From contig NZ_RCDI01000003.1 in assembly GCF_003675875.1 (NCBI RefSeq), positions 496,001 to 560,000 of the forward strand: a stretch of 64,000 nucleotides of DNA, read 5' to 3'. The first letter of the stretch is position 1. The number at the start of each line of letters is the position of its first letter. The position numbers and the translations under genes were made by a program. Source of the stretch: Halostella limicola. Its GTDB lineage: Archaea > Halobacteriota > Halobacteria > Halobacteriales > Natronoarchaeaceae. Under the pieces are notes generated by a model. That model made no database searches, was not told the DNA's origin, and saw only the letters and a list, made by a program, of their open reading frames with translations. Of the stretch, positions 39,512 to 45,988 are shown one piece after another.

Positions 39512-40168
39512 TTATCGGTCGGTCGCCGGCGGGTGCTCCTCCTCGGGGAGGTCGTCGATGAGGACGACGGCTTCGCCCTCGATGACGGTCCGGTCCTGGT
39601 CCTCGTCGGAGATAACCGTCGAGAGGCGGAACTGGTCGTCGCCGAGGTCCTCGATGACCTCGACCTCCGCCGCGATCCGGTCGCCGATGGTGACCGGACC
39701 CGTGAACTCCAGATCCTGCGAGAGGTAGATGGTGAGGCCGGGGAGCCGCGCGAGCGCCGCGCTGATGAGCCCCGAGACGAGCGTGCCGTGGGCGATCCGG
39801 CCGCCGAACCGGGTCGTCTCGGCGAACTCGTCGTCGAGGTGGAGGCGGTTCGTGTCCCCGCTCACGCGCGCGAAGTCGCGAACGTCGTCGTCGTCGAGCA
39901 CCTTCGAGAAGCGGACGGTGTCGCCGACGGCGATGTCCTCTGATCGCTCCACCGATCGCTCGAACTCCCAGTCGGACTCCTCGTACGCGACCGAGGGGAT
40001 CGAGGGCAGTTCCCGCTGATCCTCTTCGTCTCCGTCTTCGTGGTCGAACGCGGAGAGGGCAGCGGTGTTGGCCGCGGCGGCGCTCTTGAAGAACGACCCG
40101 GTCATCCGCGCCCAGGCGTTCGTCATGGCCGACAGCGGCGTTGTGAGTTCCTGAGACTGTTTGCTCAT
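39512..40168 (-). CDS. MaoC-type (R)-enoyl-CoA hydratase linked to the PHA locus (PhaJ-like)
   Basis: 218 residues. An N-terminal 70-residue helical/acidic region (SAMTNAWARMTGSFFKSAAAANTAALSAF) looks like a phasin-like or granule-targeting helix. The hot-dog domain follows, with the R-hydratase motif FARVSGDTNRLHLDDEFA and GRIAHGTLVSGLISAAL. It can convert enoyl-CoA to (R)-3-hydroxyacyl-CoA, the PHA precursor. Divergent from phaR across 205 bp, as in the known haloarchaeal PHA clusters. Confidence 0.85.
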   Translation of the reverse strand: MSKQSQELTTPLSAMTNAWARMTGSFFKSAAAANTAALSAFDHEDGDEEDQRELPSIPSVAYEESDWEFERSVERSEDIAVGDTVRFSKVLDDDDVRDFARVSGDTNRLHLDDEFAETTRFGGRIAHGTLVSGLISAALARLPGLTIYLSQDLEFTGPVTIGDRIAAEVEVIEDLGDDQFRLSTVISDEDQDRTVIEGEAVVLIDDLPEEEHPPATDR

Positions 40169-40349: not shown

Positions 40350-40373
40350 TGTCTCCCGACCTACTGACTGTTG

Positions 40374-40700
40374 ATGACGGAGGACGACGACGACCGGACC
40401 GGGATGCCGTGGTCGCCAGCAGCGTTCGCACAGCAGATGCAACAGGCGAGCGAGCAGGCGGTGGAGTCGCAGCAGGAACTGTTCGAGCAGTTCCTCTCGG
40501 CCAACGCCGGCGGGCTGGACGCCATGACCGACCTCAGCCAGATGAGCATGGGCACGGCGACGTTCAAGACCCGTGTCCAGAGCAGCGGACGGATAAGCAT
40601 CCCCGACGCCGAGCGCGAAGCCCTCGACATCCAGGAGGGCGACATCGTGCAGACAGTCGTCGTCCCCGTGAAACGCAACAGAAGTGATAACAATGACTGA
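40374..40700 (+). CDS. phaR: AbrB-type regulator of PHA granule genes
   Basis: 108 residues. The N-terminal half is a Gln/Ala-rich amphipathic helix (FAQQMQQASEQAVESQQELFEQFL) that probably binds PHA granules. The C-terminal half is a SpoVT/AbrB swapped-hairpin DNA-binding domain (FKTRVQSSGRISIPDAEREALDIQEGDIV). This matches haloarchaeal PhaR, which senses granules and controls phaRP. It overlaps phaP by 8 bp (ATGACTGA), so the two are translationally coupled. Confidence 0.9.
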   Translation: MTEDDDDRTGMPWSPAAFAQQMQQASEQAVESQQELFEQFLSANAGGLDAMTDLSQMSMGTATFKTRVQSSGRISIPDAEREALDIQEGDIVQTVVVPVKRNRSDNND

Positions 40701-41178
40701 CACCAACCCCATCCAGACCGCATTCGAGTTCCAGCGCACCGCCGTCGAACAGACCCAGCAGGCGACCCACGACGCCGTCGAGGCCCAGAAGGCCCTCGTC
40801 CAGACGCTCGCCAACAGCGTCGAGCCCGTCGCGGCCCTGCAGGCCCAGACCAACGACGTGAGCCAGCAGGCCGCCCACGCCTACCTCGACGCCGTCGAGT
40901 CCTCGCTCCCCGAGGACGCCGCCGACTTCGACGAACTGCGTCAGGCCGTCGACGACGGCTTCGAGTCCGTCGACGACGTGCAGGCCGACGCCTGGGAGTC
41001 GTTCGGCGAGATGCTCGACGAGAGCGTCGCCGCCTTCGACGAGGCCGCCGACAACTACACCGACGCCGTCGACACCACGTTCGACACGTTCCTCAACGCA
41101 CACGAGCAGGTCGAGGACAGCGTCGAGCAGGTCGCCGAGAACGCCGAGGACGTCGCCGAAGACGTCGCGGCCAACTGA
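40693..41178 (+). CDS. phaP: Phasin, PHA granule-coating protein
   Basis: 161 residues, almost entirely amphipathic helix: FEFQRTAVEQTQQATHDAVE, FESVDDVQADAWESFGEMLD, FLNAHEQVEDSVEQVAENAED. Haloarchaeal PhaP coats granules and fixes their number and size. The start is the ATG at 40693, inside the end of phaR; the reading frame upstream would add only MIT. 43 bp separate it from phaE. Confidence 0.88.
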   Translation: MTDTNPIQTAFEFQRTAVEQTQQATHDAVEAQKALVQTLANSVEPVAALQAQTNDVSQQAAHAYLDAVESSLPEDAADFDELRQAVDDGFESVDDVQADAWESFGEMLDESVAAFDEAADNYTDAVDTTFDTFLNAHEQVEDSVEQVAENAEDVAEDVAAN

Positions 41179-41221: not shown

Positions 41222-41773
41222 ATGGCAGACTCGTTCAACCCTGACGACGCGGCGCAGAACTGGAACAGCTTCGTAGAACAGATGAACAAGCAGTTCATGG
41301 ACGCCTTCGAGCAGAACGTCGAGGCCCAGGCGGAGTTCGTCGAGTCCTGGACAGAGACGCTCGAGGCGAACGCGGACGACCAGGAGCTCACCGAGGGCGT
41401 CAAAGGCTACGCCCGCGCCTACGAGGCGTGGATGGACGCCGCCCAGCAGATGGTCGAGCGCGTGAACGACTCGATGGAGGGTGAGGACGTCGAGGTCGAG
41501 GAGTTCCGCGACATCTGGCTCAACACCGCCAACGAGGCGTTCAAGGAGGCGATGAGCACGACGGCGTTCGCCGCGGCGACCGGCGAGTCCGTCCAACAGG
41601 CGCTCGACCTCCGACAGCAGGCCGGCGAGGCCTCCGAGTCCACGCTCAGCGAACTCGGCTTCGCCACCGAGGGCCAGATCGTCGAGGTCGGCGAGCGCCT
41701 CGTCGAACTGGAGCGCCGCCAGCACGCCGTCGAACAGAAGCTCGACCGCATCGTAGAGGAACTCGAAGAATGA
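41222..41773 (+). CDS. phaE: PHA synthase subunit PhaE (class III, haloarchaeal)
   Basis: 183 residues, helical and acidic ([45 protein letters not shown]). The C-terminal coiled coil ([26 protein letters not shown]) is typical of PhaE. It is the non-catalytic partner that activates PhaC. Short compared with bacterial PhaE, normal for haloarchaea. Its stop overlaps the phaC start by 4 bp. Confidence 0.92.
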
Positions 41774-43323
41774 ACCCGTACGCCGACGCCATCGACCTCC
41801 AGCGACAGGCCTGGGAGAACGCAACCGAACTCGTCGAGAAGACGGGCGCGGCGCCGGACGCCGCCGACACCGTCGCGGACGTCGACGTCGGCCAGACGCC
41901 GAAAGAGGTCGTCTACGAGGAGAACAAGCTCCAGCTCTACCACTACGAGTCCAAGACGGAGGAGCAACACGACGTCCCGATCCTCATCGTCTACGCGCTG
42001 ATCAACCGGCCGTACATCTTGGACCTCCAGCCCGACCGCTCGGTCGTCCAGACGCTGCTGGAGAACGGGTTCGACGTGTACATGATCGACTGGAACGAGC
42101 CGTCGAAGCTCGACGCCTCGCTCACGCTCGACGACTACGTCAACCGCTACATCGACAACTGCGTCGACGAGGTGCGCGAGCGATCCGGCCAGGACTCGAT
42201 CAACATCCTGGGCTACTGCATGGGCGGCACGATGAGCGTGATGTACGCCGCGCTCCACCGCGAGAAGGTCCGCAACCTCGCGCTGATGGCCGCCGGCCTC
42301 TGCTTCGCCGGCGACGGCGGCGTGCTCGAACTCTGGGGCGCCGACGAGTACTACGACCCCGAGAAGGTCGCGGAGACGTTCGACAACGTCCCCGCCGAGT
42401 TCCTGGACCTCGGGTTCGCGCTGATGGACCCCATCGCCAACGGCGTGACGAAGTACGTCCGCCTCTACGAGAACATCGAGGACGAGGACTTCGTCCAGAA
42501 CTTCGCGCGCATGGAGGAGTGGCTGGGCGACGGCATCGACGTCGCCGGCCAGACGTACGTGGAGTTCCTCCGCGACGTCTACCAGGAGAACAAGCTCTAC
42601 GAGAACGAACTGGAGCTGAACGGCAAGCGCGTCGACCTCGACAACATCGACATGCCGATCCTCCAGATCGTCGCGGAGTACGACCACCTCATCCCGCCGG
42701 AGGCCTCCAAGCCGTTCAACGACGTCATCCCGAGCGACGACGTGACGACGATGGAGTTCCCCACCGGCCACATCGGGATGTCCGTCTCCTCCAGTTCCCA
42801 CGCGGAGCTGTGGCCCGACGTCTGCGAGTGGTTCGAGGAGCGCTCGCAGGTCGAAGCGGACGCCGACGAGGACCAGGGGCCGGGCGAGTCCCGCTCCGAC
42901 GAGGAGATCGAGGAGATGGCCGAGACGGACATCCAGGAAGAACCCGCGGAGCCGGGCGAGATGCACGTCGACGAGGAGACCGTCGAGGAACTCGTCGACG
43001 AGACGGACGACGAGACGACCGAGGCCGAGGCGACGACCGAACCGGAGGAGCCGGACGCCGCCCTCGCCGAGGACGTCGACGCGGACGAGAGCGAGGCCGA
43101 AGTCGTCGCCGAGGAAGGGACGGACGTCGAGTCGACCGCGACCCTGCAGGACATCGAGGGCGTCGGCCCGTCCTACGAGGAGGAACTCCGCGGCGCCGGT
43201 ATCGAGAGCGTCGCCGACCTCGCCGCGGCGGACGCCGCCGCCCTCGGCACCGACGCGGACGTGCCGGCCAGCCGCCTCGAAGACTGGATCGAGCAGGCCC
43301 GCGAACTGCTCGACGAGGAGTGA
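41770..43323 (+). CDS. phaC: Class III PHA synthase PhaC with a C-terminal helix-hairpin-helix fusion
   Basis: 517 residues. The alpha/beta-hydrolase core (1 to about 355) has the lipase-like box GYCMGG with nucleophile Cys150, and the triad is completed by Asp305 (AEYDHL) and His334 (TGHIGM). It polymerises (R)-3-hydroxyacyl-CoA. Beyond the core, about 100 acidic, disordered residues (Glu/Asp/Ala/Thr) lead to a 61-residue domain (457-517) with the hairpin [20 protein letters not shown], a helix-hairpin-helix of the kind that binds DNA or proteins. Haloarchaeal PhaC proteins usually have only a modest tail, so this fusion is unusual. Confidence 0.93.
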
Positions 43324-43476: not shown

Positions 43477-44220
43477 ATGAAAATGGACGACCGCACCTGT
43501 TTGATCACGGGATCGGGGAGGGGTATCGGCCGCGGCATCGCGGAACATCTCGGTCAGGAGGGGGCGAACGTCGTCGTCAACTACCGGTCGTCTGAGTCGT
43601 CCGCGCTGGAGGCCGTCGAGACGATAGAGGAGTCCGGCGGACACGCCATCGCCGCGCAGGCCGACGTCACCGATCGGGACGACGTCGACGCGATGCGCGA
43701 GACGATCCACGAGGAGTTCGGCCCGCTCGACGTCCTCGTGAACAACGCCGGGATCACGAAGGACACTCGCTTCACCAAGATGACCCGCGACGAGTGGGAT
43801 CAGGTGATGAACGTCAACCTCGGGGGGACGTTCAACTGCACGCAGGCGTTCTACGACGACATCTGGAACGCCGACGAGGGCCGCCTGATCAACATCTCCA
43901 GCATCGTCGGCAAGCAGGGCAACTTCGGGCAGGCCAACTACGCCACCGCGAAGAGCGGCCTGTTCGGCTTCACCCGCACCATGGCGCTCGAACTCGCCAA
44001 CGGCGGGTCGACCGCGAACTGCGTCGCGCCCGGGTTCACGCGAACGGACATGCTGGAGACCGTGCCCGACAAGGTCCAGGAGAAGATCGTCGCGGAGATC
44101 CCGCTCGGTCGCTTCGCGGAGATCGAGGACATCGCCGCGACCGTCCGCTTCCTCGCCAGCGAGGAGTCGTCGTACATCACCGGCGAGGTGCTGGACGTCA
44201 ACGGCGGGATGGATCTGTAA
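43477..44220 (+). CDS. phaB: Acetoacetyl-CoA reductase (SDR family)
   Basis: 247 residues. Rossmann motif CLITGSGRGIGRGIAEHL (TGxxxGxG), the LVNNAG strand, catalytic Ser in NISSIVGK and the YxxxK pair Tyr155/Lys159 in NYATAKSG. It ends EVLDVNGGMDL like FabG/PhaB. Position directly after phaEC argues for NADPH-dependent reduction of 3-ketoacyl-CoA to the (R)-3-hydroxyacyl-CoA used by PhaC. Between it and the next gene lie 254 bp of GC-rich sequence with CTCGCTCCGCTCG-type short repeats and no gene. Confidence 0.88.
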   Translation: MKMDDRTCLITGSGRGIGRGIAEHLGQEGANVVVNYRSSESSALEAVETIEESGGHAIAAQADVTDRDDVDAMRETIHEEFGPLDVLVNNAGITKDTRFTKMTRDEWDQVMNVNLGGTFNCTQAFYDDIWNADEGRLINISSIVGKQGNFGQANYATAKSGLFGFTRTMALELANGGSTANCVAPGFTRTDMLETVPDKVQEKIVAEIPLGRFAEIEDIAATVRFLASEESSYITGEVLDVNGGMDL

Positions 44221-44474: not shown

Positions 44475-45626
44475 ATGGAACGCGTAGCAATCATGGGCGC
44501 GTCGATGACCCAGTTCGGGCAGCGCGACGCGTGGGTCGAGGAGCTACTCGCCCAGGCCGGCGACGAGTGCCTCCGGGCGGCGGACGTCGACCCGGACGAG
44601 TTGGACCACCTGTACGTGTCGAACATGGCGAGCGGCGAGTTCGAGGGCCAGACGGGGATCATGAACGCCCTGGCGCACGACCTCGGCGCCATGCCGGTGT
44701 ACACCCAGCGCATCGACCAGACGAGTTCGAGCGGCGGCGCGGGGGTCTACGCAGCGTGGCAGTCGGTCGCCAGCGGCGCCAGCGACATGACGATGCTGGT
44801 CGGGGCGGAGAAGATGACGCACAAGTCCACCGCGGAGTCGACGGACATCATCGCCTCGATCACCCACGACGTCGAGTACAAGGTCGGCGTCACCCTCCCG
44901 AGTTTCGCCGGGATGACGGCGCGACACTACCTGGAGAAGTACGACGCGCCCCGGGAGTCGCTGGCGAAGGTCGCGAGGAAGAACCACAGGAACGGCGTCG
45001 ATAACCCTCACGCGCAGTTCCAGAAGGAGGTCGACCTGGAGACGATCCTGGAGTCGCCGATCATCGCCGACCCGCTCCGGCTCTACGACTTCTGTCCCAT
45101 CACGGACGGGAGCGCCGCGCTCCTGCTCTGTCCGGAGTCCGTCGCGGAGGAGTACACCGACGACTACTCGGTCATCACCGGCGTCGCCGGCGCGACCGAC
45201 ACCCACGTCGTCCACGAGCGCGACGACCCGACGACGATGGGCGGCGTCGTGGAGAGCGGGAAGGAGGCCTACGAGATGGCCGGGGTCGGCCCGGAGGACG
45301 TCGACGTCGCGGAACTGCACGACATGTTCACCATCCTCGAGTTCCTCCAGATGGAGGGGCTCGGCTTCGCGGAGCCGGGCGAGGCGTGGAAGGCCGTCGA
45401 GGAGGGGAAGACGGAGATGGACGGCGAACTCCCCGTCAACACCTCCGGCGGCCTCAAGTCCAAGGGCCACCCGCTCGGCGCGAGCGGCGTCGCGCAGGTG
45501 TACGAGATACACAAGCAGATGATCGGCGACGCGGGCCCGCGGCAGGTCGAGGCAGACGTGGGTCTCGCCTGCAACGTCGGCGGGTTCGGTAACTGCGTCA
45601 TCACCACTATCCTGGAGGAAGCATGA
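44475..45626 (+). CDS. Beta-ketothiolase catalytic subunit with Ser in place of the nucleophilic Cys (BktB alpha-like)
   Basis: 383 residues, thiolase fold. Where the other thiolase in this window has Cys86 (ENACAAGG), this one reads DQTSSSGG with Ser84. The histidines remain (AELHDMF, SKGHPLGASG), and the last loop is CNVGGFGN. I recall that Haloferax mediterranei BktB, a two-subunit beta-ketothiolase for PHBV synthesis, has such a Ser-His-His arrangement, so this may be active rather than dead. The next gene encodes the OB-fold partner, overlapping by 4 bp. Position after phaB supports supply of C4/C5 monomers. Confidence 0.85.
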   Translation: MERVAIMGASMTQFGQRDAWVEELLAQAGDECLRAADVDPDELDHLYVSNMASGEFEGQTGIMNALAHDLGAMPVYTQRIDQTSSSGGAGVYAAWQSVASGASDMTMLVGAEKMTHKSTAESTDIIASITHDVEYKVGVTLPSFAGMTARHYLEKYDAPRESLAKVARKNHRNGVDNPHAQFQKEVDLETILESPIIADPLRLYDFCPITDGSAALLLCPESVAEEYTDDYSVITGVAGATDTHVVHERDDPTTMGGVVESGKEAYEMAGVGPEDVDVAELHDMFTILEFLQMEGLGFAEPGEAWKAVEEGKTEMDGELPVNTSGGLKSKGHPLGASGVAQVYEIHKQMIGDAGPRQVEADVGLACNVGGFGNCVITTILEEA

Positions 45627-45988
45627 GTTTCGACGCACACCGCTGTCCGAACGGCCACGTAACGTACCCGGGCCATCCCCGCTGTCCGGAGTGCGGAGAG
45701 GCACAGACCGAGACTATCGACATCAGCGACGAGACCGGCGAGGTCGTCACGTGGACGAAAAGCACCGCGACCCCGCCCGGCGTCCGGGAACCGAACACGA
45801 TGGCGATCGTCGAGTTCGAGGTCGACGGCGAACCCGTCCGCGCGCTCGGACAGGTGACTACCGACGACGTGGAGACCGGCGACGAGGTCGAACCCGTCTA
45901 CGTCGACGAACTCCGGGAGCCCGGCGCGGGGATTCGGAATCCGGAGAGCCAGGAGTGGGACGGGTATCGCTTCGACCCCGTCCAGTGA
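45623..45988 (+). CDS. Zinc-ribbon/OB-fold (DUF35) subunit of the beta-ketothiolase
   Basis: 121 residues. N-terminal four-ligand zinc ribbon HRCPNGHVTYPGHPRCPECGE, followed by an OB fold (GEVVTWTKSTATPPGVREPNTM, VRALGQVTTDDVETGDEVEP). DUF35 proteins pair with thiolase-fold enzymes and help bind CoA. The stop lies within a duplicated sequence block that continues into the intergenic region. Confidence 0.88.
   Translation: MSFDAHRCPNGHVTYPGHPRCPECGEAQTETIDISDETGEVVTWTKSTATPPGVREPNTMAIVEFEVDGEPVRALGQVTTDDVETGDEVEPVYVDELREPGAGIRNPESQEWDGYRFDPVQ

Follow-up and report, generated by a model that had tools for sequence, protein, structure and literature searches.

The question raised by this locus of Halostella limicola is what a helix-hairpin-helix (HhH) domain does at the end of a polyhydroxyalkanoate (PHA) synthase. 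In a window of 64,000 nucleotides (the whole stretch of DNA that was analysed), a sequence-only reading had described one open reading frame as a synthase with a complete catalytic core, continued for about 160 residues by an acidic linker and a terminal HhH domain, and had suggested that this fusion could tether the synthase or the nascent granule to the nucleoid, or bind another partner, and so aid granule partition at division. The frame in question (41770-43323, forward strand, 517 aa, ATG start) encodes the class III PHA synthase subunit PhaC, as established by a core match above the TIGR01836 cut-off of 365.3 bits, by the catalytic triad and the lipase-like box GYCMGG (42211-42228), and by the adjoining phaE, whose stop codon overlaps the phaC start in the ATGA at 41770-41773. 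The box and the three catalytic residues Cys150, Asp305 and His334, all of which had been read from the sequence, are invariant in an alignment of 45 relatives. In a Foldseek search with the whole PhaC model, where the core dominates the matches, the best PDB entries were the PHA synthases 9knk, 5t6o, 5xav and 5hz2. The continuation past the core measures 159 residues and ends in an HHH_5 domain, and both the coordinates and the architecture first described for the protein were correct (TIGR01836, PF14520).

The gene lies in the known haloarchaeal pha cluster phaJ-phaR-phaP-phaE-phaC, where a phaJ-like gene on the opposite strand is followed by phaR, phaP, phaE, phaC, an SDR reductase, a thiolase-like ORF and a small OB-fold protein (Table 1). 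The genes 3' of phaC are likely to be monomer-supply genes, and the thiolase-like and OB-fold pair resembles the two-subunit haloarchaeal beta-ketothiolase of PMC7137286.

Table 1. Features of the phaC locus in the window, and the two phasin-like proteins with an HhH domain encoded elsewhere in the same genome (positions given with genome and contig).
Feature	Position	Strand	Basis
MaoC-type (R)-enoyl-CoA hydratase, phaJ-like	39512..40168	-	PF01575 79.7 bits
phaR-like AbrB-domain regulator	40371..40700	+	MazE/AbrB-family matches weak, below cut-off; gene order
phaP, haloarchaeal phasin without HhH	40684..41178	+	gene order phaJ-phaR-phaP-phaE-phaC; similarity to HhH-bearing phasin-like protein
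phaE, class III synthase partner subunit	41222..41773	+	PF09712 34.9 bits; overlaps phaC start
PhaC catalytic core (residues 18-358), class III alpha/beta-hydrolase domain	41821..42843	+	TIGR01836 PHA_synth_III_C 432.5 bits; Foldseek
Catalytic Cys150 of PhaC	42217..42219	+	invariant, 45-sequence alignment
Catalytic Asp305 of PhaC	42682..42684	+	invariant, 45-sequence alignment
Catalytic His334 of PhaC	42769..42771	+	invariant, 45-sequence alignment
Acidic linker (residues 359-457), predicted disordered	42844..43140	+	pLDDT, composition
Short conserved module in linker (RSDEEI..., residues 375-411)	42892..43002	+	8/81 PhaC linkers and small proteins L024, L033, L037
C-terminal helix-hairpin-helix domain HHH_5 (residues 458-512)	43141..43305	+	PF14520 above gathering score
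SDR 3-oxoacyl/acetoacetyl-CoA reductase (phaB/fabG-like)	43477..44220	+	TIGR01830 302.6 bits, above cut-off
Thiolase-like ORF	44475-45626		sequence reading and gene order
Small OB-fold (ChsH2_C-like) protein	45623-45988		overlaps end of thiolase-like ORF
L160, PhaP-like protein with HhH	G000:C3:299151-300098	-	HHH_5 (38.2 bits) and PhaP homology
L161, PhaP-like protein with HhH	G000:C2:545366-546313	+	HHH_5 (34.8 bits) and PhaP homology

The HhH fusion is not unusual and is the normal form of haloarchaeal PhaC. Class III PhaC was found in 161 of 292 haloarchaeal genomes that were at least 90% complete, and the domain was present in 80/80 PhaCs retrieved from named genomes with a query that included the tail (81/81 with the window sequence). 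As a check on that query, a second set was drawn by the core model alone: the best 30 PhaCs by this model all have HhH-like tails, and 38 of 40 further ones, the shortest frames listed included, carry the domain. The two PhaCs with no translated HhH (L201 and L202) are second copies in genomes that hold another PhaC with a longer frame; in L202 (G218:C16) the linker is interrupted by an in-frame stop, after which the HhH can still be read, and for L201 (G256:C1) the domain was not found in the downstream DNA examined. How widely such fusions occur was a check proposed with the initial description, together with the tail's absence from close relatives as the outcome that would speak against it, and in every PhaC of the named set the tail is there. 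The notion that the fusion is an artefact of annotation or assembly, with two genes read as one, could draw on the weak conservation of the linker and on the stop in L202, but has a negligible probability given a single unbroken frame in 38/40 tail-independent and 80/80 named loci; it was rejected because one frame is found in essentially all relatives. In contrast, bacterial class III PhaCs from plasmids of Rhizobium, Sinorhizobium, Bosea and Priestia megaterium, the last annotated as class III (n = 4), share the catalytic core with the window protein, which is about 40% identical to them over residues 41 to about 360-380, but are only 362-369 aa long and have neither linker nor HhH.

The two parts of the haloarchaeal tail behave differently. 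In an AlphaFold2 model built from 45 relatives, linker residues 369-455 are mostly below pLDDT 50, while HhH residues 461-517 are modelled at pLDDT 90-97. The linker of the window protein has 99 residues, about 45% of them D+E and one K/R, and across the 81 PhaCs it ranges from 5 to 128 residues with means of 38% D+E and 1.4% K+R; linkers longer than 128 residues occur in PhaCs outside the named set. The majority residue fraction in the same 81 sequences is 0.59 for the HhH as opposed to 0.21 for the linker. Since linker length varies and the HhH does not, what selection maintains is the terminal domain, whose tether has no set length. The short, acidic RSDEEI... module of the linker turns up again in small haloarchaeal proteins with no other relation to PhaC (L024, L033, L037), close to their C-terminus; a hydrophobic segment of TM-like character is present in at least L024 and L037.

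The terminal domain itself scores 39.5 bits against PF14520 within the full-length protein and 45.7 bits when taken by itself (gathering cut-off 27 bits). Residues G464, G466, L473, L484 and W506 are invariant in 81/81 PhaCs, the window protein included, with both glycines falling in the GxG hairpin (G464-V-G466); the second hairpin of the usual HhH pair has no GxG motif in PhaC. In Halostella and its family dN/dS is about 0.2-0.45 for the HhH compared with 0.08-0.21 for the core, values that show purifying selection on the HhH. When the HhH by itself was searched against PDB sequences, the best match was haloarchaeal L32e, which is uninformative on function.

The same domain is found on a second kind of protein, a putative component of the granule coat. 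The genome of the window encodes two PhaP-like proteins whose C-terminus is an HhH (L160 and L161), each of 317 residues and mainly helical, and the N-terminus of such HhH-bearing phasin-like proteins is homologous to the PhaP of the window (BLASTP E=2e-10, 30% over 169 columns). Because of this homology to PhaP, the phasin-HhH proteins are expected to sit on granules. A census with profiles from L160/L161 and from a divergent group, in which the HhH was then confirmed locus by locus, found phasin-HhH proteins in 27/292 haloarchaeal genomes; all 27 are PhaC-positive, against 161/292 overall (hypergeometric P = 3.6e-8, a value that ignores shared ancestry). The occurrence of one domain on PhaP-like proteins in PhaC-positive genomes only connects the HhH with granules, and on this basis it is plausible that haloarchaea have a counterpart of the Caulobacter phasin PhaH. 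Matches to the phasin-like profile A4 were also seen in five genomes (G104, G117, G288, G009 and G015) with no class III PhaC match. A fold model of the phasin-HhH proteins from a 7-sequence alignment was poor (mean pLDDT 56) and was set aside. Literature on 'phasin' and 'helix-hairpin-helix', judged by title and abstract, described no haloarchaeal phasin-HhH protein, and the family is apparently new to the literature.

The HhH subfamily extends further. A small protein of the window genome, L152 (G000:C3:270987-271613, +), combines the N-terminal motif DVGVTVERE with an acidic stretch and a PhaC-type HhH. Proteins of this kind were found in 131/145 genomes, PhaC-negative ones among them, so the HhH subfamily is not PHA-specific. 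The window genome has 18 HHH_5 matches in all, most of them apparently in DNA or ribosome proteins. In a tree of the PhaC, phasin and small-protein domains the three were mixed and their relationships were not separated, the domain being too short.

Both the HhH observation and the nucleoid-tether idea are already in print for haloarchaeal PhaC. In Haloferax mediterranei PhaC, the C-terminal part has been described as disordered and as containing an HhH DNA-binding domain that has no known function and that bacterial PhaC lacks, and the same account draws attention to the Caulobacter HhH phasin PhaH, with its proposed granule-nucleoid link (PMC12028471, 2025). A 2025 review states that PhaH binds DNA via its HhH, that deletion of phaH disorganises granules, and that PhaM and PhaF serve the same role with other DNA-binding domains (PMC13052382). 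The long C-terminus is reported from 18 further haloarchaeal strains of 12 genera, and its truncation is reported to lower PHA accumulation (PMC7137286; PMC2939530, both citing Han et al. 2010) and to reduce enzyme function as well (PMC7137286; PMC2939530). Adding the PhaC3 C-terminus to the inactive PhaC2 did not restore synthesis, with data not shown in that paper, and PhaC2 has further defects besides its C-terminus (PMC2939530).

What the HhH would hold on to is therefore the point at which explanations part. The preferred reading, to which we assign a probability of roughly 0.4, is that the HhH serves for docking at the end of a flexible, acidic tether and holds the granule to a partner that is most likely the nucleoid. 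This is consistent with an HhH that stays intact, confidently modelled and under purifying selection at the end of a disordered stretch whose length and sequence vary freely, with the tail being absent from bacterial class III PhaCs, with the two PhaP-like HhH proteins of the window genome and the PhaC-positive status of all such genomes, and with the precedent of DNA binding by PhaH (PMC13052382). DNA is nevertheless the least certain part of it. In 135 distinct PhaC HhH domains, K/R averages 0.04 over the three positions that follow GxG, and Tyr stands at +3 in 121/135, where haloarchaeal TopA, RadA and L32e have Thr or Lys; the basic or Thr residues found beside the hairpin in DNA-acting haloarchaeal paralogues are thus missing, and the domain carries a net charge of about -10.5 per 55 residues. 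Examination of hairpin and charge gave no feature specifically favouring DNA binding. Net charge as decisive proof against DNA binding was rejected, the acidic TopA tail and RadA both acting on DNA, and binding of DNA or nucleoid by the PhaC HhH is plausible by analogy. Also counting against a nucleoid tether are the second hairpin without GxG, the acidic linker, which would repel DNA although a salt-in cytoplasm screens charge, the presence of HHH_5 tails on ribosomal and NADH dehydrogenase subunits, and a co-occurrence statistic blind to common descent. Of the suggestion first made from the sequence, the tether or docking role fits the disordered, variable linker, the conserved domain and the putative phasins; its DNA-binding part found no specific support in the sequence.

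Ranked close behind is a purely protein-protein role, a tentative alternative in which the HhH would assemble the synthase or keep it on the granule with no DNA contact, its partner being PhaE, PhaP, another HhH or another granule protein. The acidic hairpin with almost no Lys/Arg and with its conserved Tyr and Trp would suit such a role, and the phasin-like proteins, bearing the same HhH subfamily, could share the partner. The reported truncations argue in the same direction, and away from the nucleoid, by suggesting that the tail contributes to activity or assembly, alongside granule placement or in its stead; because they lowered PHA accumulation, the tail is probably not for partition only. 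Protein docking is less easily reconciled with bacterial class III cores that work with no such tail, or with the failed rescue of PhaC2, itself otherwise defective. It is rather improbable that the tail is an extension of a generic kind, serving stability or solubility, and the HhH a promiscuous haloarchaeal tail with no granule-specific partner: the small acidic proteins, some in PhaC-negative genomes, the many HHH_5 matches of the window genome and the unsettled domain tree would all accord with this, but five invariant positions in 81 sequences, purifying selection on the HhH and the finding of phasin-like fusions in PhaC-positive genomes only would not.

Under the nucleoid-tether reading, PhaC and PhaE would sit on the nascent granule with the HhH heads pointing outward, and these heads, on their acidic tethers, would hold the granule to its cellular partner. 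In a subset of species the HhH-bearing PhaP-like proteins would add further heads to the granule coat, a coat role and an HhH docking function that we infer for them. If the nucleoid were the partner, as with Caulobacter PhaH, even placement and inheritance of granules would follow. The broader claim, that one HhH module shared by the synthase and the phasin-HhH family tethers granules to the nucleoid (or to one another), is more doubtful; if true, archaea would have a system for positioning granules that is convergent with PhaH of Caulobacter. In the literature searched, no study working out archaeal granule placement and sharing at division turned up, and the present analysis adds the phasin-HhH family, with which the idea of a shared module for granule docking becomes open to test. 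With a separable, conserved terminal domain and HhH-bearing phasin-like proteins, a direct genetic test is possible in Haloferax mediterranei, an industrial bioplastic producer.

Set against known systems, the window PhaC is an ordinary member of the known haloarchaeal type. It is like Haloferax mediterranei PhaC (AF-I3R9Z4; the subtype of Han et al. 2010) in its core, triad and gene order and in the HhH at the end of a long C-terminus, and differs from it only in the length and sequence of the linker. The ribosomal L21, S2 and NuoE models and haloarchaeal L32e, which have no link to PHA, carry HHH_5 on proteins that do not act on DNA, as may also be the case for PhaC. Cupriavidus PhaM and Pseudomonas PhaF are granule proteins whose DNA-binding C-terminus places granules on the nucleoid, but their tails are histone-like and not HhH, while that of the window PhaC is acidic. 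Caulobacter crescentus PhaH is, like the window PhaC, a PHA-related protein with an HhH and a proposed nucleoid contact; it is a phasin, whereas the window protein is a synthase, and it is L160 and L161 that, by the description of PhaH, share its domain plan.
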